DNA of 64,000 nucleotides from Marinifilum caeruleilacunae (lineage in GTDB: Bacteria > Bacteroidota > Bacteroidia > Bacteroidales > Marinifilaceae), in contig NZ_RZNH01000025.1 in NCBI RefSeq assembly GCF_013141825.1, positions 1-64,000 on the forward strand, given 5' to 3'. The notes under the pieces are model-generated. The model saw only the letters and a program-made list of their open reading frames with translations. It ran no database searches and was not told the DNA's origin. Positions 18,713 through 41,744 of this stretch are shown here, in pieces. Each line of letters starts with the position of its first letter. The stretch's first letter is position 1. A program made the translations under genes and the position numbers.

Positions 18713-19918
18713 ATGCTACGTATTTTATTATCCTTAATAATTGTGTGTTCCAGTTTGGCTGGAATGGCTCAAAAAGATGCGCAATGGCGCGGAGAAAACC
18801 GAGATGGTAAATATCCTGATACAAACCTTCTAAAGTCATGGCCTGCCGAAGGTCCTAAAATGCTTTGGCATTTCGACAATCTTGGCGATGGACATGCTTC
18901 TGCTGCTGTAACCGAGAAATATGTATACACAGGTGGAACAGAAGGAGACAATGGTTTTGTAATTGCTTTCGATCATGATGGAAAGCAGGTGTGGAAAGAA
19001 GTGTATGGCAAAGAGTGGATGGATTCTTACGATGGTGTAAGAACAACTCCAATGATTAATGATGGAATGCTTTATATCCTTACAGGTCTTGGAGAGTTGG
19101 TAGCCATGAATGCCGACAATGGAAGCCTTGTGTGGAAAAAGAATATTCTTGACGAATTTGAAGGAAGTAACATTCGTTGGGGAGTAACTGAAAACCTTGT
19201 GGTTGAAGGAGAGAAGCTATTCTGTACTCCTGGAGGAAGCCAGGCAAGTGTTGTAGCTCTAAACAAGAAATCGGGTGACTTGATTTGGAAATCAGTTGCC
19301 AAGGGTGAGAAATCAGCATACTGTTCGCCAGCTTTAATTAAAGTGGGCAAGAGAAGTCTTTTGGTAACTCATACTCAAAATTCAATAGTAGGTATCGATA
19401 CCAAAGATGGTAAAATGCTATGGAGTATCGATCATCCTAACCGTTATTCAATTCATCCAAATACTCCTGTTTACCAGGATGGAATGTTGTACTGCTTTAG
19501 CGGATATGGCAAAGGTGGTGTAATGTTGGAATTGTCGGAAGATGGTTCAAGTGCAAAAGAACTTTGGAGAAATGAAAAGCTGGACAACCAAATGGGTGGT
19601 GTAATTCTTTTGGATGGAAAAATCTACGGATCGGGTCATGTTAACAGAGAATGGTTCTGTTTGGATTGGAAAACTGGCGAAACCGTGTATTCAGAGAAAA
19701 TGCTAAGTCGCGGAAATGTAATTTTTGCTGACGGCATGCTGTATTGCTATGGCGATAGCGGCGAAGTTGCATTGGTAGATGTTAGCAATGGTTCATTTAA
19801 TAAGGTGAGCTCGTTCAGAGTCCCATTTGGCGAAAAACAGCACTGGGCACACCTTGTAATTCACAATAAGAAACTATACGTGCGTCACGGTAGTTCTTTA
19901 ATGGTTTATTCTATCTAA
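18713..19918 (+). CDS. Secreted PQQ-type beta-propeller protein 1
   Basis: 401 residues: Sec signal (MLRILLSLIIVCSSLAGMAQ), then QWRGENRDGKYPDTNLLKSW, the entry strand typical of PQQ-binding-like WD/quinoprotein-fold proteins, and repeated blades (GDLIWKSVAKGEKS, DGKMLWSIDH, WKTGETVYSEK). The quinoprotein dehydrogenase Cys-Cys and Asp catalytic residues are not recognisable, so PQQ binding cannot be claimed; the fold may serve as a scaffold. First gene of the long co-directional cluster. It is closely similar to the next gene and to the one at 33692, so the three arose by duplication. Confidence 0.88.
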   Translation: MLRILLSLIIVCSSLAGMAQKDAQWRGENRDGKYPDTNLLKSWPAEGPKMLWHFDNLGDGHASAAVTEKYVYTGGTEGDNGFVIAFDHDGKQVWKEVYGKEWMDSYDGVRTTPMINDGMLYILTGLGELVAMNADNGSLVWKKNILDEFEGSNIRWGVTENLVVEGEKLFCTPGGSQASVVALNKKSGDLIWKSVAKGEKSAYCSPALIKVGKRSLLVTHTQNSIVGIDTKDGKMLWSIDHPNRYSIHPNTPVYQDGMLYCFSGYGKGGVMLELSEDGSSAKELWRNEKLDNQMGGVILLDGKIYGSGHVNREWFCLDWKTGETVYSEKMLSRGNVIFADGMLYCYGDSGEVALVDVSNGSFNKVSSFRVPFGEKQHWAHLVIHNKKLYVRHGSSLMVYSI

Positions 19919-19935
19919 GCTAAAATTAAATTGAT

Positions 19936-21183: not shown

Positions 21184-21197
21184 AAATAAGAATTTAT

Positions 21198-21230
21198 GAC
21201 CTGGCAGTGTTCTTCGAACCTGTCAGTGTC
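21198..21230 (+). repeat. GACCTGGCAG..TGTCAG repeat, copy 1
   Basis: GACCTGGCAG (21198-21207) and TGTCAG (21221-21226) are 23 bp apart. The same motif with identical spacing lies at 31755-31783, also between two genes of this cluster. It resembles the palindromic AACCTGTCAGGTT-type repeats common in Bacteroidota spacers. Confidence 0.5.
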
Positions 21231-21248
21231 TTGTTGAGACATTACAAT

Positions 21249-22673
21249 ATGCTGTCGAAAAGAAGCGAAAAAGGTTTAATTCTACTGGCCATTGTAGTTG
21301 CAATGCTACTTTTTGTATACTGGTTGGCTTATAATCCGGTAAAGGATATTCATGCAAGTATTCCTGGAATGGATAATCGTCCGAAGGAAAGTGCCGATGA
21401 TGGTGGAAAAGTGAAAATTGGAGAAGGATTTGATTTCTACCAGGATTTTGAGTCCGATTTGCAGGGAAAATGGGTGCAGTTTCGAGGAGCCAATTCAGAT
21501 AATATTTCCAGCGATCAAAGCAAACTAATCGACTCTTGGGGCGATGGCCCTAAAATTGATTGGCAGGTGGAACTGGGAGAAGGTCATGCCGCTCCTGTAG
21601 TCTATAATGGCAAAGTCTATGTACTGGATTACGATGAAGTAAAAAAAGCCGATGCCTTAAGATGCTTCTCTTTAGAGACCGGAGAAGAACTCTGGAGAAG
21701 ATGGTACCGCGTTCGTATCAAAAGAAATCATGGGATTTCGAGAACGGTTCCTGCCATCAACGACAAATACCTAATTACAATTGGACCTCGCTGTCATGTC
21801 ATGTGTACCGATCCTAACACAGGAGATTTTCTTTGGGGAATCGATTTGGTAAAAGAATACATGTCCGAAATTCCATTTTGGTACACTGGTCAATGTCCTG
21901 TAATTGTTGATAATATTGCCATTATCGCGCCTGGCGGATCATCTCTTTTAATTGGGGTTGATTGCGCAACGGGCAAGGTGATCTGGGAAACGCCAAATCC
22001 TGATGGCTGGAAAATGTCACACTCTTCGGTTATGCCAATGACTTTGGATGGTAAGAAAATGTGGGTGTATGCTGCTGTTGGCGGTATTGTTGGTGTTTCG
22101 GCAGAAGGTGACGATTTGGGTCAGATTCTGTGGAAAACCAAAGATTTTGCCCCTTCGGTTGTTGCGCCGTCGCCAGTTGTTTTTGGAAATGGCAAAGTAT
22201 ATATGACTGCCGGATATGGAGCCGGTGGTATTCTATTGCAGGTTAAAAAATCAGGAGGAAATTATACGGTTGAAACATTGCAGAAATTCAAACCAAAAGA
22301 TGGTATTGCCTCCGAACAGCAAACACCAATCCTTTACGATGGGCACATGTTTAGTATTCTTCCAAAAGATGCAGGTGGAATAAGAAATCGTTTCGTGTGT
22401 GTCGATCCAAACGACTGTCAGACCATTCTTTGGGATAGTGGTTCGGCAAACCGTTACGGATTGGGACCTTATGTGGTTGCCGATGGTAAGTTTTTCATCC
22501 TAAGAGATGATGGAACGGTTGCCATTGCAAAAGCAACATCTAAAAGTTTCCAGTTATTGGACAAAACCAAGGTGATGGATGGACACGATGCCTGGGGACC
22601 ATTGGTAGTGGTAGATGGCCGCTTGCTAATGAGAGATGATAAACACATGCTTTGTATCGATCTGAGAAAGTAG
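21249..22673 (+). CDS. Membrane-anchored PQQ-type beta-propeller protein 3
   Basis: 474 residues from the ATG at 21249, where an N-terminal membrane anchor begins (GLILLAIVVAMLLFVYWLAY); a start at 21207 is in frame but lies in the repeat. The propeller begins with WVQFRGANSDNIS and has IDWQVELGEGHAAPVVYNGK, TGEELWRRWYRV, TGKVIWETPNP, ILWDSGSANRYG blades. Cysteines in RCHVMCTDPN and CVDPNDC are unusual for the fold and could bind a metal or form disulfides. It differs from the first two propellers in its anchor and sequence, which suggests a distinct place in the same periplasmic assembly. Confidence 0.85.
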   Translation: MLSKRSEKGLILLAIVVAMLLFVYWLAYNPVKDIHASIPGMDNRPKESADDGGKVKIGEGFDFYQDFESDLQGKWVQFRGANSDNISSDQSKLIDSWGDGPKIDWQVELGEGHAAPVVYNGKVYVLDYDEVKKADALRCFSLETGEELWRRWYRVRIKRNHGISRTVPAINDKYLITIGPRCHVMCTDPNTGDFLWGIDLVKEYMSEIPFWYTGQCPVIVDNIAIIAPGGSSLLIGVDCATGKVIWETPNPDGWKMSHSSVMPMTLDGKKMWVYAAVGGIVGVSAEGDDLGQILWKTKDFAPSVVAPSPVVFGNGKVYMTAGYGAGGILLQVKKSGGNYTVETLQKFKPKDGIASEQQTPILYDGHMFSILPKDAGGIRNRFVCVDPNDCQTILWDSGSANRYGLGPYVVADGKFFILRDDGTVAIAKATSKSFQLLDKTKVMDGHDAWGPLVVVDGRLLMRDDKHMLCIDLRK

Positions 22674-22713
22674 TAGGAATTGAAAAAAATGAATTTGCTA
22701 AAATCGTATACCA

Positions 22714-23676
22714 ATGAGAAATAAATTGATTTTATGGTTTTCTGTTCTCTTGCTTGTGGTGCTGATAGCATTCATGGCAAAGGATCTGTTTACATCCAAT
22801 GATCCCACAGATAAGAATGTGTATGAATACGATTTGAACTCTCTTAGAGAGGTGGATTCCAAATTGGTGAGCCATAAGGAGAGCAAGCAAATCAAAATCA
22901 ATGCCGATGAAATTCATGCCATTGCTACCGATCAGAATGATCAAATTTATGTGGGTACCGATAAAAATGTAATTGTACTGGATGCCGAGGGAGCTCTAAT
23001 CCGCAGCTTAAAACTGCGACAGCCTGCCTCTTGTCTAACTGTAATGGATAATGGAAATATTGTGGTTGGCATGAGTACACGTGTCGATATCAGGAAACCA
23101 GATGGAAGCCTGAGAAATAGCTTCGTGGTGAAAGGGGAGAGAACCTATATCACTTCCATTGCAGTTCAGGATGAAAACATTTTTATTGCCGATGCTGGCC
23201 AGAAAATCATTCATCATTTCGATATGGATGGAAACAAAATCAAAGAAATTGGAGGAGAAAACCAGGAGGAAGGAATCAAAGGATTCGTAATTCCGAGTCC
23301 ATTTTTCGACCTGTTGATTGGTCGCCAGGGAGAATTATGGGCCGTAAACCCGGGCAGACATGCTTTTGAGGCCTATAATTTCGAAGGCCAGCAAATATCG
23401 AATTGGGAAAGAACCTCGATGAGTGTGGAAGGTTTTAGCGGTTGTTGTAATCCATCGAATATAGCAATGCTTTCCGATGGTTCTTTTGTAACAGCAGAAA
23501 AAGGATTGGAAAGAATTAAAATACACCTCCCTTCCGGGGATTTCAAATCAGTAGTTGCCGCTCCCGAATTGTTTGAGGAGGGCACCATTGGAATCGACCT
23601 GGCAGTGGATTCAAATGACAGGATATTGGTCTTGGATCCTGTAAAAGGATTAATCAGAATTTTTGAAGCAAAATAG
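22714..23676 (+). CDS. Membrane-anchored NHL/six-bladed beta-propeller protein
   Basis: 320 residues: N-terminal anchor (LILWFSVLLLVVLIAFMA), then an NHL-type propeller rather than the PQQ type: ALIRSLKLRQPASCLTVMDN, GNIVVGM, QENIFIADAGQ-like blades, ELWAVNPGRHAFEAYNFEG and GCCNPSNIAMLSDGSFVTAE. The CC pair in GCCNPSN is notable. It lies 40 bp after propeller 3 and one base before the small Tat protein, so it is translationally linked to the Fe-S part of the cluster. A role in docking the periplasmic Fe-S proteins is possible (inference). Confidence 0.82.
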   Translation: MRNKLILWFSVLLLVVLIAFMAKDLFTSNDPTDKNVYEYDLNSLREVDSKLVSHKESKQIKINADEIHAIATDQNDQIYVGTDKNVIVLDAEGALIRSLKLRQPASCLTVMDNGNIVVGMSTRVDIRKPDGSLRNSFVVKGERTYITSIAVQDENIFIADAGQKIIHHFDMDGNKIKEIGGENQEEGIKGFVIPSPFFDLLIGRQGELWAVNPGRHAFEAYNFEGQQISNWERTSMSVEGFSGCCNPSNIAMLSDGSFVTAEKGLERIKIHLPSGDFKSVVAAPELFEEGTIGIDLAVDSNDRILVLDPVKGLIRIFEAK

Positions 23677-23677
23677 A

Positions 23678-23890: not shown

Positions 23891-23913
23891 CTAGTCAGCA
23901 AAAACTAGTCAAT

Positions 23914-24474
23914 ATGAAAAAAGACAGAAGAGAATTTATCAATACCTGTTTTCGTTTTGCAGCCGGAGCCAGTATTGTAGGTGTTGCAGGAGTCTTGGCA
24001 AGCAAAAGTGCCAAAGGAGATTATTTTTGGCAGCTCGATCCAACAAAATGCACACAATGTGGGCGTTGTGCAACCAGTTGTGTGGTAACACCATCGGCGG
24101 TAAAATGCATCCACGTATACGACATGTGCGGCTATTGCGATTTGTGTGGTGGATATTTTCGTCCGAACGTAAAAAATCTATCTACAGGTGCAGAAAATAT
24201 GCTTTGCCCAACAGGAGCAATCAAACGAACCTATGTCGAAGATCCGTATTTCAAATACGAAATTATCGACGATTTGTGTATTGGCTGTGGAAAGTGTGTG
24301 AAAGGTTGTGGAGCTTTCGGAAATGGTTCCCTGCAATTACAGGTGAGTCACGATTTGTGTGTGAATTGCAACGAATGTGCCATTGCACGCGATTGTCCTG
24401 CCGATGCATTTAAACGAGTTCCTCTTGAAGAAGCCTACCAGTTTGCCGGCTTCAAAACCAATAAAAAGATTTAA
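23914..24474 (+). CDS. Tat-exported poly-[4Fe-4S] ferredoxin
   Basis: 186 residues. The twin-arginine signal is KKDRREFINTC with the hydrophobic segment AAGASIVGVAGVLA. Four Cys groups follow: CTQCGRCATSC, CGYCDLCGG with LCPTGA, CIGCGKCVKGC, and CVNCNECAIARDCP. This layout is like NapG/MauM-type periplasmic ferredoxins, which receive electrons from a NapH-type membrane protein. Exactly such a protein is encoded 3 bp downstream. It is therefore probably the periplasmic electron carrier of the system; its acceptor would be the propeller proteins or an unknown partner. Confidence 0.9.
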   Translation: MKKDRREFINTCFRFAAGASIVGVAGVLASKSAKGDYFWQLDPTKCTQCGRCATSCVVTPSAVKCIHVYDMCGYCDLCGGYFRPNVKNLSTGAENMLCPTGAIKRTYVEDPYFKYEIIDDLCIGCGKCVKGCGAFGNGSLQLQVSHDLCVNCNECAIARDCPADAFKRVPLEEAYQFAGFKTNKKI

Positions 24475-24477
24475 GAA

Positions 24478-25740
24478 ATGAAGAAAGTCCTTTCGATACT
24501 CTCTCTTTTACTATTATCCATAGTTGATTTTGCCACCTTTGCGCAAACGCAACGATTTCCAAGACCGGAGTTTGAGTCAGGTTATACCCAACCGGTTACT
24601 TCAATGCCGGCGCCGCGAGCAGGAATATTTGCCTTGGTAGATGTATTGCTTTTAATTGCGGCTTTAAGCCTGATTACCTGGTTTATTCATAAAAAACGTT
24701 CCAGAACAGGAGTGGTAATCACTTCTCTGTTCTCCCTTGTATATTTCGGATTCCTAAGAGAAGGCTGTGTTTGTTCTGTGGGATCGGTTCAGAATGTGGT
24801 CTTGGCCCTGTTCAATCCTGGATATCATATCCCACTTTCGGCATTGGCATTTTTTGTAATTCCTTTGGTATACACACTCTTTTTCGGAAGAACCTTTTGC
24901 GCAGGTGTTTGTCCTTTGGGAGCTGTGCAGGATGTTTTCCTTTTAAGACCAGTAAGCTTGAAAAAGTGGCTTCAGAAGGTTCTTGGTTTAATTCCTTGGA
25001 TTTACCTTGGTTTGGCAGTTCTTTATGCTGCAACCGGAACCGATTTTATCATTTGCAGATACGACCCTTTTGTAGGGATATTCAGGTTTAATGCTACCTT
25101 TTTCATGTTTGCCATTGGAGCGGCATTTTTGCTAATCAGTGTGTTTATTGCGCGTCCATACTGTCGTTTTCTTTGTCCTTATGGTGTGATTTTGAACCTG
25201 GTAAGCCGTGTGTCCAAAAATCACCTAAGCATTACTCCAGCGAGCTGTATTCAGTGTAAACTTTGTGAGAATTCATGTCCGATTGATGCCATCAATAAGC
25301 CGGTAGAGGTGAAGCAAATGGAAGATAAACGATCGGCAACCCAACGTTTTATTCTTCTGGCAATGATTATTCCGGCCCTTATGATTATTGGAGGTTGGGT
25401 GGTTTCAAACTTCCATGAGAACCTGGCCATGGTAAACTCTAAGGTTAGACTGGCAAATGAACTATTGCATTTCGATGCTGATACCATGAAAGAAAGCCTG
25501 GAGATTGAAGGGTTCAGAACTTCTGGAAAAACCAAAGAGGAGTTGTACCTGGAATCAGCCGATATTTTGAAGCAATTCTATTACGGATCGTGGATCTTGG
25601 GCGGATTTATTGGTTTGGTGTTTGGATTATCGCTGGCAGGATTAACAAGATACCGCTATCGTGAAGACTATGAAGCCGACAAAGGCGAATGTGTGAGTTG
25701 TGCCCGATGCTTGAAATATTGCCCGGTGGAAAAGGCTTAA
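24478..25740 (+). CDS. NapH/NosR-like membrane [4Fe-4S] protein
   Basis: 420 residues. A signal-like N-terminus is followed by several membrane helices. Between them are FCAGVCPLGAVQD and CRFLCPYGV, the CxxxCP motifs of the NapH/NosR/RnfE-like family, then a cytoplasmic ferredoxin (CIQCKLCENSCP). A second helix pair encloses about 70 extra residues, and the protein ends in CVSCARCLKYCPVEKA. NapH-type proteins pass electrons from quinol or a cytoplasmic donor to periplasmic ferredoxins. The stop codon lies at the edge of a MITE-like repeat, so the last few residues may not be ancestral. Confidence 0.88.
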   Translation: MKKVLSILSLLLLSIVDFATFAQTQRFPRPEFESGYTQPVTSMPAPRAGIFALVDVLLLIAALSLITWFIHKKRSRTGVVITSLFSLVYFGFLREGCVCSVGSVQNVVLALFNPGYHIPLSALAFFVIPLVYTLFFGRTFCAGVCPLGAVQDVFLLRPVSLKKWLQKVLGLIPWIYLGLAVLYAATGTDFIICRYDPFVGIFRFNATFFMFAIGAAFLLISVFIARPYCRFLCPYGVILNLVSRVSKNHLSITPASCIQCKLCENSCPIDAINKPVEVKQMEDKRSATQRFILLAMIIPALMIIGGWVVSNFHENLAMVNSKVRLANELLHFDADTMKESLEIEGFRTSGKTKEELYLESADILKQFYYGSWILGGFIGLVFGLSLAGLTRYRYREDYEADKGECVSCARCLKYCPVEKA

Positions 25741-25901: not shown

Positions 25902-25902
25902 T

Positions 25903-27807
25903 ATGAAGAACAAATTCAAAATAAGAAAAACCAATCTTTCGCTGTGGAGAAACATTGCCATAATAGCGGGTACTTTCTCCTTTATCATCTGCATGTTGGT
26001 GCTGGTGAATTACATACAAATTAATCGAATTGATCCGGTAAATACGGAATTGATTAATTCATTGGTTCAAAGATTAGAAGAAAATCCAAATGATAACCAA
26101 TTGCGCGAGCAGATTCGTGAAATGGATCTTTTGGTAAGAAAGGCCTATTTTACCAATCAGTGGCAGGTAAAAGCAGGAGGATATCTTCTGTTATTGGGTG
26201 TAATTGTAACTGCTATCGCTTTACAAATGTTCTATGCAGGTAAGCAAAAGTTGCCTCAAATTAGCGAAGAAGAAGAGGAGAACATTGTCTTGTTCAAAGA
26301 GAAGGCACGCAAATGGATTGGTGTTGGTGGTTTTGGATTGGTGGCAATTACCTTACTGATAGCCTTTTTAACCCACAAGGAATTGGGAAATCAGTTTACC
26401 CAGGCTGCTTTGGTGGCTCAAACAACACCTGAAGAGACCAGCGATGTTGAGGTGGTAGAACCAATCAAAGAAGAAGTTGTGAAGGAAGAACCTGCCAAAG
26501 AGGAAGAAACTAAAGAAGAACAAGCAAGCGAAGAAGTACAGAAAGAGGAAGAAAAGCCTGCCGAAACTGTTGTGGAGGAAAAGAAAGCGGAGCCAGCTGA
26601 GAAGAAAATAGAAGCTCCTGTCACAAAACCTGCAAGCAGTGCCAGCTATCCTACAAAGGAGATGATGGCAAACTTTCCTGCATTCCGTGGTGCTGGTGGA
26701 CAGGGAGTATCTTACCAGAAAAATATCCCAACCGATTGGGATGGAGCAAGTGGCAAGAATGTACTTTGGAAAGTTCAGGTGCCGATTCATGCCTACAACT
26801 CGCCTGTAATTTGGGGAGATAAATTGTTTTTATCTGGTGCCAATGCCAGTCAAAGAGAAGTATATTGCTACGATCGCAACAACGGAAAATTGCTGTGGAC
26901 AGCAAAAGCGGAAGGCATTGCCGGATCTCCTGCCAAATCGCCTGAAGTAACACCAGATACAGGTCATGCAGCTTCGACGGTAACAACCGATGGAAAATCG
27001 GTATTTGCCATTTTCGCCAATGGCGATATCATTGCCTTGGATTTTAATGGAAAACAGAAATGGGCAAAAAACCTGGGCGTACCTGATAACCATTACGGAC
27101 ACTCTTCGTCTTTGCTGATCTACAAAGAAAAATTGATTGTACAGTTCGATCACAAAAAGGCAGCAAAAGTAATGGCTCTTTCAACTGCCGATGGAGCTGA
27201 GTTGTGGAGCACAAAAAGAAAAGTTCGCGTTTCGTGGGCATCACCTGTAATTGCTGAAATTGGTGGCAGAACAGAGGTGATTTTGGCTGCTGATCCTTGT
27301 GTGGCATCTTATGATGTAAACACAGGGCAAGAGCTATGGAAACTGGATTGTATTACTGGTGAGGTTGGTCCTTCGGTTGCAGTTGGCGATGGAATTGTAT
27401 ATGCTTTGAATGAATATGCAAGCCTAGTAGCCATTAAACCAGGCGAAAGTCCGGAGGTATTATGGGAAGCATACGATTACCTTTCGGATGTTCCTAGTCC
27501 GATTCTTTCTGGCGACAACTTGTTTATTGTAACCAGTTATGGTGCAGTGGTTTGTTACGATGCCAAATCGGGAGAAATCCGTTGGGAACAGGAATTCGAC
27601 AGTGGATTTTATGCATCGCCAATATTGGTTGATGGGAATGTGTATCTGCTTGACAGAGATGGGGTAATGCATATTTTTAAAGCCGATAAGGAATACCAGG
27701 AAATTGCAGCTCCTGCATTGGGAGAGAAATCAGATATGACACCAGCATTTGCTGATGGCAAAGTATATATCCGAGGAGAGAAACACCTTTATTGCATAGG
27801 GAAATAG
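25903..27807 (+). CDS. Multi-TM PQQ-type beta-propeller protein 4 with charged linker
   Basis: 634 residues. Three membrane segments (about residues 14-34, 88-108 and 138-157) are followed by an extended Glu/Lys/Pro/Val-rich linker (about 178-250, with many EE, KEE and EEV units) and a C-terminal propeller beginning FPAFRGAGGQGVSY. Blades include NNGKLLWTAKAEG, GAELWSTKRKVRVSWASPVI and SGEIRWEQEFDSG. The linker could let the propeller reach across the periplasm. The next gene's start codon is 2 bp after its stop, tying it to the NuoEF-like flavoprotein. Confidence 0.87.
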   Translation: MKNKFKIRKTNLSLWRNIAIIAGTFSFIICMLVLVNYIQINRIDPVNTELINSLVQRLEENPNDNQLREQIREMDLLVRKAYFTNQWQVKAGGYLLLLGVIVTAIALQMFYAGKQKLPQISEEEEENIVLFKEKARKWIGVGGFGLVAITLLIAFLTHKELGNQFTQAALVAQTTPEETSDVEVVEPIKEEVVKEEPAKEEETKEEQASEEVQKEEEKPAETVVEEKKAEPAEKKIEAPVTKPASSASYPTKEMMANFPAFRGAGGQGVSYQKNIPTDWDGASGKNVLWKVQVPIHAYNSPVIWGDKLFLSGANASQREVYCYDRNNGKLLWTAKAEGIAGSPAKSPEVTPDTGHAASTVTTDGKSVFAIFANGDIIALDFNGKQKWAKNLGVPDNHYGHSSSLLIYKEKLIVQFDHKKAAKVMALSTADGAELWSTKRKVRVSWASPVIAEIGGRTEVILAADPCVASYDVNTGQELWKLDCITGEVGPSVAVGDGIVYALNEYASLVAIKPGESPEVLWEAYDYLSDVPSPILSGDNLFIVTSYGAVVCYDAKSGEIRWEQEFDSGFYASPILVDGNVYLLDRDGVMHIFKADKEYQEIAAPALGEKSDMTPAFADGKVYIRGEKHLYCIGK

Positions 27808-27809
27808 TT

Positions 27810-31783: not shown

Positions 31784-31795
31784 CTTTAAGTAGTT

Positions 31796-33675: not shown

Positions 33676-33691
33676 TATCAAAACCCATACT

Positions 33692-34912
33692 ATGAAAAAC
33701 TACATCTTAATCTTGTTGGCAGTAACATTGTTTTCCTGCACATCAAATCAGAAGAAAATTAGTGAGTGGAGAGGTGAAAACCGCTCTGGAACTTATGCCG
33801 AAACCAACCTTTTAAAACAATGGCCCGAAGATGGACCAAAGCTGCTTTGGGATGCTGAAGGAATTGGTAATGGTTATGGCTCTCCGGTGATTAGCGATAA
33901 TACCATTTACCTGAATGGTGAAATTGATAGTGTTGCTTACCTGTTTGCAATGGATTTGCAAGGAAAAGTATTGTGGAAGACAGAGTTTGGAAAAGATTGG
34001 ATGAAGAATTTTATTGGAAGTCGTTCTGCTCCAACACTAGTGGATAGTTTGGTGTATGTAGCATCTGGTTTAGGCGATGTAGCATGTATTCATGCCGAAA
34101 CAGGAAAATTAAAGTGGCATTTGAATATGCTTGAGAAGTTTGAAGGCAAAAATACCCGTTTTGGATATTCTCAATCTCTTTTGGTTGATGGCGATTTGGT
34201 TTTTGCAGCTCCAGGTGGTGTAGAAAACAATGTAATTGCTTTGAATCGATTTACAGGAGAAACCCAATGGACCAATGCAGGTTTGGGTGAAATCCCTGCT
34301 TATTGTTCTCCATTGTTGGTAGAGTTTCCAAGTAGAAATATTTTAGTAACTTTCTCGGAACATGCTTTATTGGGAATTGAAACAAAAACCGGTAAAACAT
34401 TATGGACTCACCTGCAAGATACTACCAAAGGAGATGTAAATGGTAACACACCCATTTACGAAGACGGATTTTTATACTACGTAACAGGATGTGGTAATGG
34501 TACTGTAAAACTGAAAGTTGAAGAAGAAGGTGCTAAAATCACGGAAGTGTGGAAGAATGAAGAATTAGATAACATTATGGGCGGTGTTGTGAAGCTTAAT
34601 GGAAAACTTATTGCTTCGGGCCATCGCAAGAAAGTATGGAAGAGTGTTGATGCCGAAACAGGTGAAACACGCGACACCTTAAAATTTGGACGAGGCGCAA
34701 GTATTGCTGCCGATGGGATGTTGTATTGTTACAATGAAAGAGGACAAGTTGGACTTGTTGCTGTAAGTCCTGAGAAAATGGAATTGGTAAGTAAATTTAA
34801 AGTGACCAAAGGTACTAAGGAGCATTTTGCTCAGCCAGTAATTGCCAATGGGGTATTGTATATCCGTCATGGCGATGCACTTATGGCATACGATATAAAA
34901 AGCAATTCATAA
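33692..34912 (+). CDS. PQQ-type beta-propeller lipoprotein 6
   Basis: 406 residues from the ATG at 33692, giving MKNYILILLAVTLFSC with a lipobox; the frame extends back to 33653, overlapping the ATPase gene, but that start would not give a signal. The mature part begins SEWRGENRSGTYAETNLLKQ and WPEDGPKLLWD, close to propellers 1 and 2, with blades TGKLKWHLNMLEKFEGKNTRF and TGKTLWTHLQD and the end VTKGTKEHFAQPVIANGVLY. Outer- or inner-membrane lipid anchored. It is the third member of the 1/2/6 subfamily, separated from the others by 13 kb. Confidence 0.87.
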   Translation: MKNYILILLAVTLFSCTSNQKKISEWRGENRSGTYAETNLLKQWPEDGPKLLWDAEGIGNGYGSPVISDNTIYLNGEIDSVAYLFAMDLQGKVLWKTEFGKDWMKNFIGSRSAPTLVDSLVYVASGLGDVACIHAETGKLKWHLNMLEKFEGKNTRFGYSQSLLVDGDLVFAAPGGVENNVIALNRFTGETQWTNAGLGEIPAYCSPLLVEFPSRNILVTFSEHALLGIETKTGKTLWTHLQDTTKGDVNGNTPIYEDGFLYYVTGCGNGTVKLKVEEEGAKITEVWKNEELDNIMGGVVKLNGKLIASGHRKKVWKSVDAETGETRDTLKFGRGASIAADGMLYCYNERGQVGLVAVSPEKMELVSKFKVTKGTKEHFAQPVIANGVLYIRHGDALMAYDIKSNS

Positions 34913-35036: not shown

Positions 35037-35083
35037 CGGAATTTACTGACTTTTTTATCCATGGAAAAAGTCAGAGTATTCCG
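35037..35083 (+). repeat. Strong two-step hairpin in operon spacer
   Basis: Inner stem CTGACTTTTT (35046-35055)/AAAAAGTCAG (35065-35074) and outer stem CGGAAT (35037-35042)/ATTCCG (35078-35083). It lies in the 212-bp gap between propeller 6 and the Cys-tail ferredoxin, preceded by a palindrome around ATAGCTAT. It could attenuate or process the transcript. Because the T-run is inside the stem it is not a classic terminator. Confidence 0.5.
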
Positions 35084-35124
35084 GCTTGAGGAAAATAATA
35101 AGATTGTTACTAAAAACTTATAAT

Positions 35125-35991
35125 ATGAGTAAGCAGATATTTATTTGTGGATGCGAGAAAGATGGTAAAATCGAAAAAGAGTCGGTTCAGAAATTGAAGA
35201 AGACTCTGGAGGAGAAGAATATTGGCTTCACTTATATTGAAGATATGTGTGGCACAATACTTAAAAATCCTGATGATTTGGAAAGCCTTTACACAGCCAA
35301 AGATGCAGTTGTTTTTGGCTGTCAGGCTCGTGCCATGCAACACCTGGTAGACAATTCGGGACGTAGGAATGAAGAACTTGCAACGGAATATTACCATATC
35401 GATGATGAGAGGGATGAATTGATTTCAAGCCTGGAGTCGGGTAGTGGTGAACCTTTGCAGATTAAATATTCCGATGATTGGAAACCCTGGTATCCGGTAA
35501 TCGATTATGAACGTTGTAATGGCTGTAGAAAATGCCTGAATTTTTGTCTGTTTAGTGTTTATTCGGTTGAGGATGATGGTACTGTAGTGGTATCGGCTTC
35601 GGCCAACTGTAAGGATATGTGTCCTGCATGTGCAAGGGTTTGTCCACAAAATGCAATTATCTTCCCTAAACATGCCGAAAGTCCTATTGATGGAGGAGAA
35701 GGAGATGGATCTGAAAATGAAAAAACAGATATTCTTGAACAAATCCAGAATGATGATGTTTATTCAGTATTGAGTGCAAGGAGAAAGAACTTCCAGGTTT
35801 CTTTACTGAAGAAAGATCAGTTACAACTGGCCGAAGAAGAGCGAAGAGCATGTTGTAGCGGAGGCGAAAAGAAAGAGGAAAAAAAGGAAGAAAAGTGCGA
35901 TTGCGATTGCAATTGTAAAGACGAAGCAGCAGTAGCAAGTTGCGATTGCGATTGCGACTGTAAAGAGGGAGATTCAAACTCTTGTTGTTGT
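35125..35991 (+). CDS. Ferredoxin-domain protein with Cys-rich metallothionein-like tail
   Basis: 289 residues from the ATG at 35125 (MSKQIFICGCEKDGK). Residues 1-110 form an alpha/beta domain with FICGC and VVFGCQARAM. A ferredoxin follows: CNGCRKCLNFC and CKDMCPACARVCPQNAI. The last ~50 residues are remarkable: ACCSGGEKKEEKKEEK, then CDCDCNC, CDCDCDC and a terminal CCC, 13 cysteines in all. Such a tail could bind several metal ions or store or deliver clusters. I know of no family with this combination. It opens the radical SAM/terpenoid half of the cluster; the next gene starts 42 bp after its stop. Confidence 0.8.
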
Positions 35992-36033
35992 TAGTTCACT
36001 CAGTTCAAATCTATTATCTAAAAACTATAGTTA

Positions 36034-37227
36034 ATGATATTTTCATTAGGAGCCAGAATATTTCGTAGCGTTGATTTAAAGTTGCTTTGGAAACTTGGAT
36101 ACAATCTTGGTTTTAAAGGAATGAAGGCAGTGGCGAAACACAAGAAACGTCTGAAAAAAGGTGAATTGTATCCTGCCTTTATGATGATTTCGGTGACCGA
36201 TAACTGTAATCTGAATTGCCAGGGCTGTTGGGTAAGCATCAACAATACTTCCAAGGGCATGGATGTGGAAACATTGGAGAATATTATCAATTCCAGTAAG
36301 AAGAAAGGGTCCTATTTCTTCGGATTATTAGGAGGCGAACCTTTGATGTATCCGCAGTTAATGGATGTTATCGAGCGACATTCCGATTGCTATTTTCAGT
36401 TGTTCACCAATGGAACTTTATTGAGCGATGAGATTGCTCAAAGAATGAGAGCCCTGGGAAATGTTTCTCCTTTAATTAGTGTGGAAGGTTTGCAGGATGT
36501 GAGCGATGTTCGTCGTGGTGCAAATAATGTTTATGGCAGAACAATGACTGGCATAGAATCGGCAACCCGAAACAAACTATTTACCGGTGTTGCCACAAGT
36601 GTTTGCAAATCGAATTTTAAAGATTTGGTGAGCGAAGAGTTTGTGAATTCCTGCATTAAAAAAGGGGTGCATTACCTGTGGTACTATATTTATCGTCCTG
36701 TTGGCGAGCGTCCAACAACCGATTTGGCCTTGTCCGAAGAGGAGATTTTGGAACTGCGCCAGTTCATGGTCGATATTCGTGTGAAAGCGCCATTAATGAT
36801 TATCGATACCTATTGGGATGAAAAAGGAAATGCACTTTGTCCGGGGGCAATTGGCTTATCGCACCATATCAACCCTTACGGTGATATAGAATTTTGTCCG
36901 CCAATACAATTTGCGGGAGAGAATGTTGGCGATGGTTCAAACCTGGAATCAGTCATTGAAAATTCTAAATACATATCAGGATTAAGATCAGGAATTAAAG
37001 AAAAAACACAAGGCTGTATTTTACTTGACGATCCTGAACATTTACATCGTATGCTCCAGGAGGTGGATGCATATGATTCATCGAAAAGAAGCACAGCATT
37101 TCAAGAATTACAGAAAATGAAGCCTTGTGCAGGCCATCATTTACCGGGAAAGGAAATTCCCGAAAAATCATGGGTGTATCGATTTGCCAAAAAGTACTCC
37201 TTCTTTGGCTTTGGTGCCTATGGATAA
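36034..37227 (+). CDS. Radical SAM enzyme with C-terminal Fe-S-like extension
   Basis: 397 residues. The radical SAM motif CNLNCQGC has Cys58, Cys62 and Cys65. FFGLLGGEPLMYP is the SAM-binding GGE region, and LFTNGTLLSDE and PLISVEGLQDVSDVRRG belong to the TIM-barrel. The C-terminal part contains CPGAIGLSHHINPYGDIEFCP, SPASM/twitch-like with cysteines set for an auxiliary cluster, and ends with KPCAGHHLPGK. The genes on both sides (Cys-tail ferredoxin, DUF116-prenyl synthase, cyclases) suggest it modifies an isoprenoid, much as HpnH acts on hopanoids, but I see no HpnH-specific evidence. The Cys-tail ferredoxin could be its reductant. Confidence 0.88.
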   Translation: MIFSLGARIFRSVDLKLLWKLGYNLGFKGMKAVAKHKKRLKKGELYPAFMMISVTDNCNLNCQGCWVSINNTSKGMDVETLENIINSSKKKGSYFFGLLGGEPLMYPQLMDVIERHSDCYFQLFTNGTLLSDEIAQRMRALGNVSPLISVEGLQDVSDVRRGANNVYGRTMTGIESATRNKLFTGVATSVCKSNFKDLVSEEFVNSCIKKGVHYLWYYIYRPVGERPTTDLALSEEEILELRQFMVDIRVKAPLMIIDTYWDEKGNALCPGAIGLSHHINPYGDIEFCPPIQFAGENVGDGSNLESVIENSKYISGLRSGIKEKTQGCILLDDPEHLHRMLQEVDAYDSSKRSTAFQELQKMKPCAGHHLPGKEIPEKSWVYRFAKKYSFFGFGAYG

Positions 37228-37318
37228 TCAATCGGCAATTAACAAATCAATAACAACCAATTAAAAGGGATGTAATTATATTCGTTTATTCTCTCATCTT
37301 AAATCTGGAATCTATAAA

Positions 37319-38923
37319 ATGATTTTAAGGAAAGATCAAATCAATACCAATTTAGGAAATGCACTGCCGCAAACTCCTGAAAAATTAAAGCAAATCAGGG
37401 ATTTGATTCGCGATTATGCTGCTGAAACGGAAATTGTTCCGCCCTTACAGGAAGAGGAGGTGATTTTCCATTCGGGAGAGTTGATCAAGCTGCATCCGGA
37501 ATTGTTTCTTTATCAGAAACTTTTGGCTGTAATGATTAACAATTTTGCATGGCAGAATATCGTGGCTGGTATTCCTTTTAATCGAAGAATATTGTTACTG
37601 CCTAAATGCTTTAGTCATGCCGATTGTCCGGCGGAATTCGACGAATTGGGCCTGCTTTGCGAACAATGTGGCAGGTGCGATTTGGCTGATATCATTTCAA
37701 AGGCTGATGACCTGGGTTACCATACCATTGTAAGCGAAGGAACAACTTCGGCCAGTGTTTTGCTCTCCTCTGGTCAGGTAGAGTGTGTAATTGGCGTTGG
37801 TTGTTTGCATTCTTTCGAAAGATCTTTTCCGCTGGCAGTAAAAGAGGCTGTGCCATCCATAGCAATTCCTTTGTACAATAACGACTGTAAAGATTCCAAG
37901 GTAGATGAGATTTGGTTGAACGAAATTCTTGCGGTAAGAAATCAGAGCAATTGGAATGGCTGGATTGATTTGGATCTGTTAAAGAAATCGGTAAAATCTT
38001 GGTTTAGCAAAAAGAATCTGGAGGAGTTTTTCTCCTATCGCGACGAAACGGTTGATATTGCCATTGACTGGATCGAAAAAGATGGAAAACGCTGGAGACC
38101 ATTGATTATGACTGCTGTTTATGATGCTCTTACCGGTAAATCGGGCGAGTATGACGAGACCATACAGAAATTGGCAGTTTCCATAGAATGCTTTCATAAG
38201 GCTTCGCTGGTGCACGACGATATTGTTGATGAGGATGATGAAAGATATGGTAAACCAACCTTACACAAGGAATACAATATGCCGGTGGCTTTAAATGTTG
38301 GTGATTTGATGGTAGGTTATGGATACCAGATGATTGCGGAATCGGGAGCCAAGCACATACGAAATTTAATGAAGGTAGCTTCTAAGGCGCATCGCGATTT
38401 GGCCCTGGGGCAAGGTGAGGAGTTGTTGTGGCGATCGAATGGCAAATTTCTAAGCAAAGAAGAAATCATCCGAATTTTTAGCAATAAAACTTCACCTGCT
38501 TTCGAAGTAGCTTTGCAATTTGGTGCCATACAGGCAAATGCCAATGGAAGTGTACAGAATGTGATTGCAGAATACAGCAGGGCTTTGGGAATAGCCTATC
38601 AAATTAATGATGACCTGGATGATTTTAAGCAAAAGGAAATTGCCAGTGGCTTTAATACCGTTCAACCATCGCTGGTATCAAGTATATTGAATGAAAAATA
38701 TCCTCAGAAAATGCAGGAATGGTCGAAAAGAAACCAGGAAGGCGATGCTTCGGTACATTCGGAAATATTGCATTGGGAGGAGACAAATCTGGCCATGAAA
38801 GAGGCTGAAGAAATGCTAAGCGAATACAAGCACCAGGCAATGCGAAGCCTTAGTAAACTGTCAAGTTCAAATTTAAAGATCTTGTTAACGCGCCTGTTGA
38901 ATCGCATCGTTCCCGAAAACTAA
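37319..38923 (+). CDS. DUF116 - polyprenyl diphosphate synthase fusion
   Basis: 534 residues. Residues of about 40-200 match DUF116: CFSHADCPAEFDELGLLCEQ and CGRCDLAD, then a V..EGTTSASVLLSSGQVECVI-type strand-helix. From about 240 the chain is a trans-prenyltransferase: GKRWRP, SIECFHKASLVHDDIVDEDD (first Asp-rich motif D300-D301-x-x-D304) and QINDDLDDFKQ (second motif D431-D435). Small residues Ala and Ser before the first motif, and its two-residue spacing, favour a long-chain product (inference). DUF116 has a Cys-rich, probably Fe-S or zinc site; fusing it to a prenyl synthase is unusual and suggests redox control or substrate channelling. Confidence 0.88.
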   Translation: MILRKDQINTNLGNALPQTPEKLKQIRDLIRDYAAETEIVPPLQEEEVIFHSGELIKLHPELFLYQKLLAVMINNFAWQNIVAGIPFNRRILLLPKCFSHADCPAEFDELGLLCEQCGRCDLADIISKADDLGYHTIVSEGTTSASVLLSSGQVECVIGVGCLHSFERSFPLAVKEAVPSIAIPLYNNDCKDSKVDEIWLNEILAVRNQSNWNGWIDLDLLKKSVKSWFSKKNLEEFFSYRDETVDIAIDWIEKDGKRWRPLIMTAVYDALTGKSGEYDETIQKLAVSIECFHKASLVHDDIVDEDDERYGKPTLHKEYNMPVALNVGDLMVGYGYQMIAESGAKHIRNLMKVASKAHRDLALGQGEELLWRSNGKFLSKEEIIRIFSNKTSPAFEVALQFGAIQANANGSVQNVIAEYSRALGIAYQINDDLDDFKQKEIASGFNTVQPSLVSSILNEKYPQKMQEWSKRNQEGDASVHSEILHWEETNLAMKEAEEMLSEYKHQAMRSLSKLSSSNLKILLTRLLNRIVPEN

Positions 38924-38956
38924 AATCATTGATTAATATCGACAAATTAGAACACC

Positions 38957-39922
38957 TTGAATAAAAAACGAAGCTGCAATACATCCATTTTTCAAGCGCT
39001 CTTAAAAAGCAAAGATATCCTTAGCCTCGAGGCTCAAAATCACATCAGCTCATTTATTTCTTCGCAGAAATATGAAGGTGGAGGTTTTAAAGACCGTGCA
39101 GCGAAACCTGATCTTTACTATTCGGTTTTTGGCTACACGTTAAGCCTGATTTTCGGGGTAAAGCTAAATGTCAGGCAAGAAGAAAGCTATCTGAATTCAA
39201 TTGACAAATCGAAATTGGATTTTATTCATACAGTCTGTTTGATACGTGCTAAATTTCTATTGAATTTGATCGATTTGCAGCAAAAATCAGGTTTCAACCT
39301 TAAGGCAGAATTAACAGAGGGTTTTATAGGGAATTTATTGATTAAAAGAATTTCAAAGAGCATTAAAAAGGAATATCATGGCTTGTTTCAGGTGTTGGAT
39401 TTATATCAATCTGAAGATCAAGGATACAATCACAATCGACGCCACGAAAAGCAATCGACTGTCTATGCCAACTTTTTAATCTGGACACTTTTCGACGATT
39501 TAGGATATGATGAAAAAAGATTAGAGGAAATCTGTCGCGCCAATCAGAAATTGAACTTGCCCAATGGCTCATTTGCCAACGAATTAAACAGTAGCGACGG
39601 TGTAACATCTGCCACTGCTGCAGCTTTGATTATGGATGCAGAACAAGAACAGTCGAAACTGTATTTGAAAGATATGTATACCCGGAGAGGTGGGTTTAAA
39701 GCAAGCGCCAATGTTCCAATTACCGACTTGCTTTCCACGGCCACGGCTTTGCTGGCTTTAAAATTGTCTGGAGAAAAAATGGAATCCTTTGCCGAAAATT
39801 CCTTAAATTTCATCAACCTTCACTGGGATGAGTCTGGAGGCTTCTTTGGAAGCATAGCAGATATGACCTGTGATGTGGAATATACCTACTATGCTCTTTT
39901 GGGTATCGGTGTTTTATCGTAG
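38957..39922 (+). CDS. Terpene-cyclase/prenyltransferase-fold (alpha-alpha repeat) protein, short
   Basis: 321 residues. No ATG start is available: an in-frame stop lies at 38948-38950 and the first usable codon is the TTG at 38957. Alpha-alpha hairpins of the squalene-cyclase/prenyltransferase beta-subunit type can be seen in SQKYEGGGFKDR, PNGSFANELNSSDGVTSATA, RRGGFKASANVPITDLLSTA and WDESGGFFGS (GGF/GxF units in place of full QW motifs). There is no DxDD motif, so it is probably not a catalytic class II cyclase by itself. It may pair with the next protein or act as a single-domain partner. The gap to the next gene is only 16 bp. Confidence 0.75.
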   Translation: MNKKRSCNTSIFQALLKSKDILSLEAQNHISSFISSQKYEGGGFKDRAAKPDLYYSVFGYTLSLIFGVKLNVRQEESYLNSIDKSKLDFIHTVCLIRAKFLLNLIDLQQKSGFNLKAELTEGFIGNLLIKRISKSIKKEYHGLFQVLDLYQSEDQGYNHNRRHEKQSTVYANFLIWTLFDDLGYDEKRLEEICRANQKLNLPNGSFANELNSSDGVTSATAAALIMDAEQEQSKLYLKDMYTRRGGFKASANVPITDLLSTATALLALKLSGEKMESFAENSLNFINLHWDESGGFFGSIADMTCDVEYTYYALLGIGVLS

Positions 39923-39938
39923 AACGTGAAATTTATAT

Positions 39939-41744
39939 ATGGATCAGATTTACAGTCGAATACAGTCTCTTAAGCAAAAGCTGGACAATCAGATTATCTC
40001 CGTAAGGAATGAAAATGGGTATTGGGATGGACAACTTTCCAGCAGCGCCCTTTCGACAGCTGTTGCAGTTTTTGCCCTTTGGAAATATGACAAGAAGAAA
40101 TACGACTACCAGATCAATAAAGGATTATATTGGCTGGCAGAGAATGTAAATTTGGATGGCGCCTGGGGAGATACAATCCGCAGCAAAAGTAATTTGAGTA
40201 CAACTTTGCTCACCTGGGCATGTTTTTCCATTGCAAAAGATCGGGCTGAATTCGCCGAAACCATTCAAAATGCTGAGGATTGGCTTAAGGATAGATTGAA
40301 AAAACTAGACCCGGAATCGATCAGCTCTGCTGTCTTGAATCACTATCAGAGCGACCAAACCTTTTCTGTTCCCATATTATCGATGTGTGCTTTGGCTGGT
40401 CGATTGGGCGACAAAGGCTGGAAACTTGTACCACAACTTCCTTTCCAAATGGCTGTTTTTCCCGACCAGCTTTTTAAATTTCTCAAGCTTTCGGTGGTGA
40501 GTTATGCCATTCCGGCTTTAATAGCCATTGGTTTGGTAAAATCGCGCAATAGCAGGCAGAATAAACTGGTGAGAAAGCTAAACAAATGGGTAAAACCTAA
40601 GGTTTTGAAAATATTGGCCGAAAAGCAACCTGATAATGGTGGTTTTTTAGAAGCAACACCCTTAACCGGATTTGTTCTGATGAGTTTGATAGGAGCAGGA
40701 GAAAGAAAATCGGAAGTTTGTAAGAAAGCTGCTGATTTCTTAGAGCAATCCATTCGGGAAGATGGATCATGGCCAATTGATACGCATTTGGCAACCTGGG
40801 TAAGCTCCCTGGCTGTGAATGCTCTCGATAATGATAGAATTTCGGAACTGTCAGATAGAGAGATGCTTGTATCTCACTATTTGAATCAACAGTTAAAAAA
40901 TATACACCCATTTACCAAGGCGAAACCTGGTGGTTGGGCATGGACTCACTTGCAAGGAGGTGTTCCCGATGCCGATGATACCTCTGGTGCATTAATCGCT
41001 TTGCACAAGCTCAGTAAATTTGAAAATGTACCTCTCGATTCCATCGCGCAAGGAATACAATGGTTAATGGATCTACAGAATTACGATGGAGGTTTGCCAA
41101 CCTTCTGTCGAGGCTGGGGAAAATTGCCTTTCGATTGTTCTTGTCCTGATATTACTGCCCATACATTAAAAGCTTTTGCATTGTGGAAAGATCAGATGGA
41201 TAGCCTGCTTCAAAATAAAATGGAAAAAAGCATTCGTTCAGCCTGGAAATATTTGAGAAAATCGCAACAGGAGGATGGTTCGTGGTTGCCATTATGGTTT
41301 GGAAACGAGGATGATATGCAGCATCAGAATCCGGTGTATGGAACTTCAATTGTACTTTATTCTTTAAGTGATTTACATGCAGTGGGTTTACACGATTTTG
41401 ATGAAGTGAAAAATAAAGCTTTAGCCTTTCTCCAGACCTCTCAGAATGAGGATGGTGGATGGGGAGGAAGTGCCAATATTATCTCTAGTATAGAAGAAAG
41501 TTCGCTGGCAATTAGAGCTTTAGCGTCTCACCAAATCGAGACCCATATCGAAAGTGGAATAAAATGGCTGGAATTGCATCTTCCGAAAGATTTGAATGAT
41601 ATTAATGCAACACCAATTGGTTTGTACTTTGCTTCGCTTTGGTATTTTGAAGACATGTATCCATTGGTTTTTGCTTCTTCTGCAATGAATGAAGTGGAGA
41701 AGTTAATTAAGAATTACGAATTATCAATTACGAACGAAGCATAG
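39939..41744 (+). CDS. Class II terpene cyclase (squalene-hopene cyclase family)
   Basis: 601 residues, near the 630-residue length of bacterial squalene-hopene cyclases. The protonating motif DADD lies at 344-347 in GVPDADDTSGAL, at the expected distance along the chain (DxDD is at 374-377 in the Alicyclobacillus enzyme). QW-type repeats occur as REDGSWPID, YDGGLPTF, FLQTSQNEDGGWGG and YLRKSQQEDGSWLP. The fold and motif support cyclisation by proton attack. No squalene synthase or HpnCDE is in the window. The substrate is more likely the polyprenyl product of the DUF116 fusion encoded upstream than squalene (inference). Confidence 0.88.
   Translation: MDQIYSRIQSLKQKLDNQIISVRNENGYWDGQLSSSALSTAVAVFALWKYDKKKYDYQINKGLYWLAENVNLDGAWGDTIRSKSNLSTTLLTWACFSIAKDRAEFAETIQNAEDWLKDRLKKLDPESISSAVLNHYQSDQTFSVPILSMCALAGRLGDKGWKLVPQLPFQMAVFPDQLFKFLKLSVVSYAIPALIAIGLVKSRNSRQNKLVRKLNKWVKPKVLKILAEKQPDNGGFLEATPLTGFVLMSLIGAGERKSEVCKKAADFLEQSIREDGSWPIDTHLATWVSSLAVNALDNDRISELSDREMLVSHYLNQQLKNIHPFTKAKPGGWAWTHLQGGVPDADDTSGALIALHKLSKFENVPLDSIAQGIQWLMDLQNYDGGLPTFCRGWGKLPFDCSCPDITAHTLKAFALWKDQMDSLLQNKMEKSIRSAWKYLRKSQQEDGSWLPLWFGNEDDMQHQNPVYGTSIVLYSLSDLHAVGLHDFDEVKNKALAFLQTSQNEDGGWGGSANIISSIEESSLAIRALASHQIETHIESGIKWLELHLPKDLNDINATPIGLYFASLWYFEDMYPLVFASSAMNEVEKLIKNYELSITNEA

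Follow-up and report, generated by a model that had tools for sequence, protein, structure and literature searches.

A conserved two-module gene cluster of Marinifilum caeruleilacunae with a predicted Bfu-type redox core and a putative isoprenoid pathway

Organisation of the g1-g17 locus

The window analysed here is a stretch of 64,000 nucleotides from Marinifilum caeruleilacunae (contig NZ_RZNH01000025.1, positions 1 to 64,000 of the forward strand; assembly GCF_013141825.1), and the genome from which it was taken (G000) is of Marinifilaceae lineage, 5.27 Mb in size and 99.96% complete. Positions 18713-41744 hold 17 genes, g1-g17, all on the plus strand, and 13 of the 16 intergenic gaps are shorter than 100 bp (range -23 to 237) (Table 1). 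The genes fall into two modules, a redox module A (g1-g12) and an isoprenoid module B (g13-g17). An earlier description made from the letters alone, hereafter the sequence-only reading, had recognised the co-directional run with its mostly short gaps, although it counted 18 genes. Family matches bore out most of its assignments, namely six pyrroloquinoline quinone (PQQ)-type propellers (g1, g2, g3, g7, g10 and g12; PF13360) and one NHL propeller (g4), a NapH-like membrane ferredoxin (g6), a NuoE-NuoF fusion (g8), a ferredoxin with a Cys-rich tail (g13), a radical S-adenosylmethionine (SAM) enzyme (g14), a prenyl synthase (g15) and two alpha-alpha toroid proteins (g16 and g17). It had also listed two proteins of the twin-arginine translocation (Tat) type; a pattern search of the first 35 residues of each protein found the motif only in g5. 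Families, motifs, ligand conservation, operon linkage and co-occurrence were all read from sequence, and ligand conservation was counted over the alignment rows of each protein.

Table 1. Genes of the cluster, with the evidence for each assignment (aa, amino acids; fractions are alignment rows)
Gene	Assignment	Coordinates	Strand	Evidence
g1	Secreted PQQ-type propeller, 401 aa	18713..19918	+	PF13360 96.6 bits; N-terminal hydrophobic segment
g2	Secreted PQQ-type propeller, 415 aa	19936..21183	+	PF13360 67.5 bits; N-terminal hydrophobic segment
g3	Membrane-anchored PQQ-type propeller, 488 aa, strong conservation	21207..22673	+	
g4	Membrane-anchored NHL propeller, vicinal Cys244-Cys245	22714..23676	+	PF01436 33.3 bits; both Cys 66/66
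g5	Tat-type exported polyferredoxin, NapG-like role	23914..24474	+	R5 61/63, R6 60/63; 17 Cys 61-63/63
g6	Polytopic NapH-like Fe-S protein, extra C-terminal Fe-S motif	24478..25740	+	TIGR02163 51.8 bits (cut-off 213); 15 Cys 76-77/77
g7	Membrane-anchored PQQ-type propeller, 634 aa	25903..27807	+	PF13360 114 bits; three hydrophobic segments
g8	BfuC (NuoE-like)-BfuB (HydB/StnB-like) fusion	27792..30149	+	PF01257, PF01512, PF10589, Fer4; B2 ligands
g9	BfuA/StnC-like Fe-S and FAD relay without the presumed NADPH domain	30205..31737	+	Alignment to 9bov_A
g10	Secreted PQQ-type propeller, 369 aa	31796..32905	+	PF13360 141 bits, PF13570 260 bits
g11	LolD-like ABC ATPase, no adjoining FtsX permease gene	32995..33675	+	TIGR02211 244 bits (cut-off 308)
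g12	PQQ-type propeller, lipobox-like LFSC	33653..34912	+	PF13360 83 bits; motif scan
g13	Four-Cys N-terminal domain, 2x[4Fe-4S] domain, Cys-rich tail	35086..35994	+	Fer4; 12 Cys 84-85/85
g14	Radical SAM enzyme, extra C-terminal Cys	36034..37227	+	PF04055 61.6 bits; C58/C62/C65 and C269/C288/C328 91/91
g15	DUF116-trans-polyprenyl diphosphate synthase fusion	37319..38923	+	PF01976 92 bits, PF00348 144 bits; seven DUF116 Cys and DDxxD 93/93
g16	Single alpha-alpha toroid protein without DxDD	38957..39922	+	PF00432 40.4 bits; motif scan
g17	Squalene-hopene-cyclase-like class II terpene cyclase, DADD	39939..41744	+	PF13243 107 bits; D344/D346/D347 77/77

g8 and g9 resemble the cytosolic core of Bfu enzymes

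Above their cut-offs g8 carries PF01512, PF10589, Fer4_21 and PF01257, the domain set of a Bfu core, given that we take these Pfam families to correspond to the InterPro definitions of the Bfu domains; the SLBB domain PF10531 was found under its cut-off (E 2.9e-5, 24.2 bits against 27). When g8 was compared with solved structures, the top chains were 9bov_B (685 bits), 8oh5_B (678), 9n5u_B, 7t2r_B (629) and 7q4v_B, spanning 626-685 bits. The nine best relatives (582-685 bits) include 8oh5_B from Stn and the HydB chains of 7t2r, 7q4v/7q4w, 8a6t and 7p5h, while three more of the nine carry the labels NADH dehydrogenase or NfnB; the next chains, from formate dehydrogenase and complex I, score 386 bits at most. 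We assign 8oh5 to Stn from its C chain, whose 1172 residues equal the stated length of StnC (PMC10482914).

The ligands of the unusual B2 cluster provide a finer comparison. They are C438, C476, H525, C531 and C536 in the NiFe enzyme, and the histidine is reported to be missing in just 8 of 1558 BfuB sequences and absent from non-bifurcating homologues (PMC9304861). Alignment of g8 to 7t2r_B placed C628, K666, H715, C720 and C725 at these positions. H715, which corresponds to H525, was present in 35 of 36 rows, the remaining row being gapped, and C628, H715, C720 and C725 were kept in all ungapped rows (35-36 of 36). The same four ligands occur in all seven g8-g9 fusions found in the phylum of Pontiella. 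Taken together, these features point to g8 as an NADH/ferredoxin core of the HydBC/StnAB (Bfu) type, for which coupled bifurcation is predicted.

Residues 4-281 of g9 align with 6-287 of 9bov_A and residues 272-506 with 426-671, leaving 288-425 of 9bov_A unmatched; from the layout of GltD we presume this stretch to be the NADPH domain. StnC has a GltD-like fold at 102-565 (PMC10482914). PF13510 was above its cut-off in g9, PF00037 (18.5 bits against 21.1) and PF22117 (20.2 against 27) were below theirs, and the Cys ligands are conserved, so that g9 offers the 2Fe-2S and 4Fe-4S domains of a BfuA partner. Its description in the sequence-only reading as a NuoG/GltD-like flavoprotein thus holds for the family, but needs the correction that a 138-residue stretch of StnC-type chains is absent. 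For the same reason the cluster does not qualify as StnABC, whose StnC has the NADPH domain.

Reduction of g9 goes further in the phylum of Pontiella, where g8 is fused to the first domain of g9 in seven genomes with contiguous modules (three checked by match, four by length). Two of the three fusions checked by match (L186, L191 and L193) also match the last Fe-S part of g9, and the FAD domain is absent between. Other genomes of this phylum keep a separate g9 (L136, L196-L199 and L205). Since g9 is without the presumed NADPH stretch and the fused form is without the FAD domain, NADPH is an unlikely partner. We read the missing domains as a putative loss of the soluble substrate site with retention of the wire to the membrane.

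Membrane, periplasmic and transport components

Eight hydrophobic segments were listed for g6, two of them overlapping, and the Fe-S ligands of g5 and g6 are conserved across alignment rows, as is the twin arginine of g5. NapGH and NosGH are quinol-linked periplasmic ferredoxin pairs, and the g5-g6 pair resembles them in that a Tat-type polyferredoxin adjoins a polytopic protein with Fe-S motifs. It differs from them, however, in the extra C-terminal Fe-S motif of g6, in its linkage to an NADH/ferredoxin core and in the lack of a known reductase gene. The score of g6 against TIGR02163, far under the cut-off, likewise excludes it from NapH itself.

The propellers share features with PQQ dehydrogenases, BamB and tetrathionate hydrolase, since the predicted model of g3 has a propeller fold and PF01011 lies above its cut-off in five of the seven (g1, g2, g7, g10 and g12). 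In contrast, they score far under the NCBIfam cut-offs for dehydrogenases and BamB, and none passed a redox-enzyme cut-off in that collection, the best being TIGR03075 with g10 (97.4 bits against 480); membership of the quinoprotein dehydrogenases was rejected on this score.

The ATPase of the ATP-binding cassette (ABC) type, g11, had been called lone. No permease gene adjoins it in the window, but a gene of about 1093-1097 codons for an FtsX-type permease lies between g11 and g12 in four of seven family genomes (G013, G016, G021 and G031; Pfam was checked on the G013 copy), and one adjoins in many other relatives. The permease is absent between g11 and g12 in the window, G001, G010 and G012, a result for that place only, the rest of these genomes being unsearched. 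Membership of LolCDE was rejected, as g11 scores below the TIGR02211 cut-off and has no adjoining permease gene here.

Additional genes interrupt module A in relatives. In many of them g10 and g11 are separated by a gene for a GT4 glycosyltransferase (e.g. L149:13193-14470); the gene lies between g9 and g10 in L136 and after the permease in L179 and L185, and it was not found in the operon of the Marinifilaceae examined. It is no stand-in for module B, as Draconibacterium and Maribellus genomes hold both. Draconibacterium aestuarii has a histidine kinase and a LytTR response regulator between its g1 and g2 matches (L131:6890-8651), and inspection by eye suggests a likeness between this pair and the gene groups c3 and c4 found near g13 in several loci.

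Module B encodes a putative isoprenoid pathway

Both Asp-rich motifs of a trans-polyprenyl synthase are present in g15: D300, D301 and D304 were found in 93 of 93 rows and D431 and D432 in 92, with one gap, while place 435 is D in 68 rows and E in 24, again with one gap. g17 has the DxDD motif of class II cyclases (DADD, 344-347). The first motif and DUF116 cysteines of g15, the DxDD of g17, the cysteines of g14 and twelve cysteines of g13 are nearly invariant, also in the second phylum, for which the module B alignments hold only 5-8 rows. The small residues before the first motif and the model matches suggest a medium- or long-chain product for g15. The best solved match of g13 was to HdrA chains, a weak one covering the ferredoxin part only (E 8e-6). 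Its Cys-rich tail is variable: in contrast to the Fe-S ligands, no single tail Cys is present in more than 34% of 70 rows.

The squalene/phytoene synthase family (PF00494) was found in none of the seven Marinifilaceae genomes searched, G000 included, and in 12 of the 28 genomes searched overall. As PF00494 was not found in these Marinifilaceae, g17 there probably uses a prenyl diphosphate or a prenylated compound as its substrate. The hopanoid pathway shares with module B a class II cyclase family with DxDD and a radical SAM enzyme nearby; module B differs in its dedicated DUF116-prenyl synthase, and the genome search found no member of the squalene/phytoene synthase family to go with it. We reject the hopanoid pathway for the window genome only. 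g17 is no hopene cyclase by TIGR01507 (95.1 bits against 431), and HpnH was dismissed at 49 bits against 225. A defence system was also considered; PADLOC, with 8 proteins tested, gave only modest viperin-model radical SAM matches (50 bits) to g14, and this candidate was dropped.

Conservation and linkage of the two modules

The gene order is the same in seven genomes of the same genus or family, in stretches that end in g15 (G016), g16 (G031) or g17 (G001, G010, G012, G013 and G021). As far as these stretches reach, six are complete; the exception, G010, is missing g2 and g12. To compare loci more widely we used the best 80 of at least 521 confirmed g14 relatives in named genomes. The nearest named relatives among the matches listed are Marinifilum loci with 88-90% identity, in a list from which the record of the window itself may be absent. 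Open reading frames (ORFs) were called by a mechanical script, and in several loci some genes went undetected or were given a wrong length.

Module B was kept as a block in these 80 loci, with g13 in 66 of 68, g15 in 73 of 73, g16 in 69 of 70 and g17 in 64 of 66 of the loci reaching far enough. Module A was less often at hand: 37 of the 59 loci with at least 9 kb downstream contained a gene whose best match was one of g1-g7 or g12, and g3, g5 or g6 shared a locus with g14 in 24 of 80. In loci of Draconibacterium, Maribellus and Sunxiuqinia, such as L066, L072 and L092, genes g1-g10 are missing from roughly 10 kb around module B, and a distant g11-like ATPase is the only trace of module A in L072. 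Whole genomes of these three genera (G070, G075 and G085) nevertheless hold g6 and g3 elsewhere. Among 38 named g14 carriers tested from the 80 loci, full-length g6 was present in 36 (E 4e-130 or better) and g3 in 37 (E 4e-82 or better); of the two exceptions for g6, G073 has distant propellers only and G090 keeps g1-g4.

Co-occurrence was then counted in 346 genomes of the window's class and 247 of its order (E 1e-60), and in 194 of the phylum of Pontiella, with lineage according to NCBI (E 1e-50). The class gave g6 in 4, g14 in 2 and both in 2; the order g6 in 41, g14 in 13 and both in 11; and the phylum of Pontiella g6 in 29, g14 in 29 and both in 25. The P values for co-occurrence, 4.6e-8 and 2.6e-23, were computed as if the genomes were independent, though they are related. 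The g17 cyclase was sought in 59 chosen genomes at E 1e-10, and was found in none of the 30 order members with g6 only, neither of two further Bacteroidia (G252 and G317) and none of nine chosen without g6. Three of the four genomes with g6 and no g14 in the phylum of Pontiella have it, one as a fragment.

Seventeen of the 29 genomes with g6 in that phylum were fetched, and ten of them hold both modules in one 20-kb stretch (G822, G762, G753, G736, G843, G776, G729, G682, G718 and G665); in the other seven the fetched stretch does not show both. The first seven share the order g13-g14-g15-(g16)-g17-g3-(g4)-g5-g6-g7-g8-g10-g11-permease, within the limits of the stretches and ORF calls; in G753 and G682 the g14 gene is some 3 kb outside the fetched stretch, and g14 of G762 and g17 of G822 were placed by separate protein searches instead of ORF calls. 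In many genomes g8 belongs to the same gene run as g5, g6 and propellers, as does g9 where it is unfused.

The linkage exceeds chance, with order kept within the family and content kept in a second phylum. It is strong but one-sided: module B usually occurs with module A, and A often without B in the window's order. The claim of a single system whose halves do not occur separately therefore survives in one direction, as genomes with g14 mostly have g6 (11 of 13, 25 of 29 and 36 of 38 named carriers), and not in the other, as 30 of the 41 order members with g6 lack g14. None of these 30 has the cyclase, and the isoprenoid is therefore not a required carrier or anchor of the redox half; the sequence-only reading had suggested a carrier, anchor or effector. 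Gene trees of g14, g6, g3 and g8 did not separate transfer from vertical descent.

Other features of the window

The Rfam scan of the window returned no RNA feature above its gathering threshold. Between 18200 and 35200, promoter-like sites show no excess (34 seen against 37.2 expected by chance), and terminator-like sites (21 against 13.7) were set aside as evidence. Two divergent genes with lipobox-like motifs, one weakly alpha-L-rhamnosidase-like, occupy 15160-18306 on the minus strand; the pair adjoins the cluster in five of the seven family relatives fetched, and a match of the smaller gene adjoins g17 in two Draconibacterium loci (L062 and L067). Further away are a run resembling fatty-acid oxidation genes (53562-60685; 3-hydroxyacyl-CoA dehydrogenase, thiolase, ETF alpha and a 4Fe-4S protein) and a C10-family peptidase with a Spi-type inhibitor domain (865-2445).

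Discussion

The description that suits the redox half of the cluster best is that of a new Bfu variant spanning the envelope. It shares with HydABC and StnABC the BfuC and BfuB domains and core ligands of g8 and the 2Fe-2S and 4Fe-4S parts of g9 (PMC9304861, PMC10482914). In contrast to these, its third substrate apparently lies across the membrane, reached through g6 and g5, the presumed NADPH domain is gone and a lysine occupies one B2 place. The membrane-bound Bfu enzymes named in the text of PMC9304861 covered here are Mbh-Bfu and Nuo-Bfu, and its main text contains neither PQQ, NapH nor propeller. A literature search, made without most subscription journals and any preprints, yielded no description that we recognised as this cluster; an Akkermansia paper with terpene cyclases was set aside, as its text match to 'NapH' falls inside naphthylamide in the passages shown, its genes remaining unplaced.

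For the cluster as a whole we tentatively favour, with a little less than even confidence, a conserved two-module trans-envelope redox system in which a variant Bfu core is combined with an isoprenoid pathway and electrons flow outward. From the families and motifs above we infer topology, electron path, direction, substrate and product as follows. The g8 core would lie in the cytosol, with NAD(H) at its flavin mononucleotide (FMN) and ferredoxin at its C-terminal clusters, and would exchange electrons through the BfuA-like relay g9 with the membrane Fe-S protein g6. From g6 they would pass to the Tat-exported Fe-S protein g5 and on to a periplasmic propeller assembly of the anchored g3, g4 and g7 together with g1, g2, g10 and g12. 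The third substrate would be outside the cytoplasm, with g3 as our guess for the point of contact, and the g11 ABC system may serve the envelope part. In these fermentative carriers the usual direction would be outward: electrons from NADH and reduced ferredoxin would enter a common pool and be discharged to an external acceptor, for which Fe(III) and humics are possible candidates. The chain drawn in the sequence-only reading, from NADH through the membrane Fe-S protein to the periplasm, fits the family matches and ligand conservation, but it overlooked the bifurcating Bfu type, with ferredoxin as the likely third partner. In module B, g15 would make a polyprenyl diphosphate that g17, helped by g16, cyclises and that g14 and its ferredoxin g13 modify. 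The product may work with, or be modified by, module A in lineages having module B, and the isoprenoid half appears to be accessory to the redox half. The stronger proposal, of a new kind of machine in which bifurcation or confurcation has its third substrate outside the membrane, propellers work without cytochromes and a purpose-made cyclic isoprenoid is the redox or docking cofactor, strikes us as distinctly unlikely; if it were true, metal-reducing fermenters would possess an extracellular electron route independent of cytochromes.

Several observations weigh against the favoured system. The fifth B2 place, Lys in the window and the other Marinifilaceae rows, is Cys or Thr in 20 of 35 ungapped rows, with a few other residues in the remaining rows; the text of PMC9304861 covered here does not name the C476 place as defining for Bfu. 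The propellers may carry no electrons, given that none passed a redox cut-off. Squalene is excluded at most for Marinifilaceae, because seven of 14 other g14 carriers tested have the synthase family. Beside the 30 order members that have g6 without g14, g14 occurs without g6 in two of 13 in the order (G482, a weak match at 5e-67 with no g17, and G564, with g17) and in four of 29 in the phylum of Pontiella, all four with g17, which argues against a strict need for g6. The linkage could also reflect transfer as a block, and the counts come from related genomes and are hence not independent. The literature search described above yielded no data on expression, biochemistry or lipids.

The opposite direction of flow would have the propellers oxidise a periplasmic substrate and pass electrons through g5 and g6 to g9-g8, where the core would bifurcate to NAD+ and ferredoxin. 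We consider this unlikely: no propeller reached the PQQ-dehydrogenase cut-off, bifurcation would need a low-potential donor, and the cultured carriers Labilibaculum, Ancylomarina and Pontiella are described, in the source text available, as fermenters. Envelope biogenesis is a different matter, in which reductant and transport from module A would serve to build or mature a lipid or protein of the cell surface, with module B making the lipid that is incorporated. The ABC-FtsX genes and GT4 of relatives would be at home there; GT4 is missing from the Marinifilaceae operons examined, however, g6 so often occurs without g14 in the order, and an NADH/ferredoxin core seems elaborate for a maturation role, so that this too seems to us improbable. 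That two unrelated functions are merely adjacent would agree with the loci L066 and L092 (and L072, but for its ATPase), which have no module A gene within about 10 kb, and with the frequent g6 without g14, yet is highly improbable when the same three genera hold g6 and g3 elsewhere, g6 accompanies nearly all named carriers and both modules recur, often contiguous, in a second phylum.

A possible link of the preferred outward-flowing system to physiology comes from Labilibaculum filiforme 59.16B, in which both modules are present (L046). In this strain and two sister strains, Fe(III) oxides received 2-3% of the electrons from glucose and Fe(III) citrate received 6-12%, although the authors proposed an NrfHA-type cytochrome for Fe(III) reduction (PMC5760507), which also counts against our interpretation. 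We regard the Fe(III) link in Labilibaculum as a lead only; outward disposal fits fermenters, and inward flow seems the less likely direction.

Function is not obvious for 17 of the 57 BfuB clades (PMC9304861), and further diversity of the HydBC family is expected (PMC10482914). The g1-g17 system is a concrete, conserved Bfu candidate whose third partner would lie across the membrane, and it ties a new-looking isoprenoid pathway of prenyl synthase, class II cyclase and radical SAM enzyme to a redox system in two phyla. It is also a candidate, open to test, for Fe(III) reduction by fermentative Marinifilaceae.

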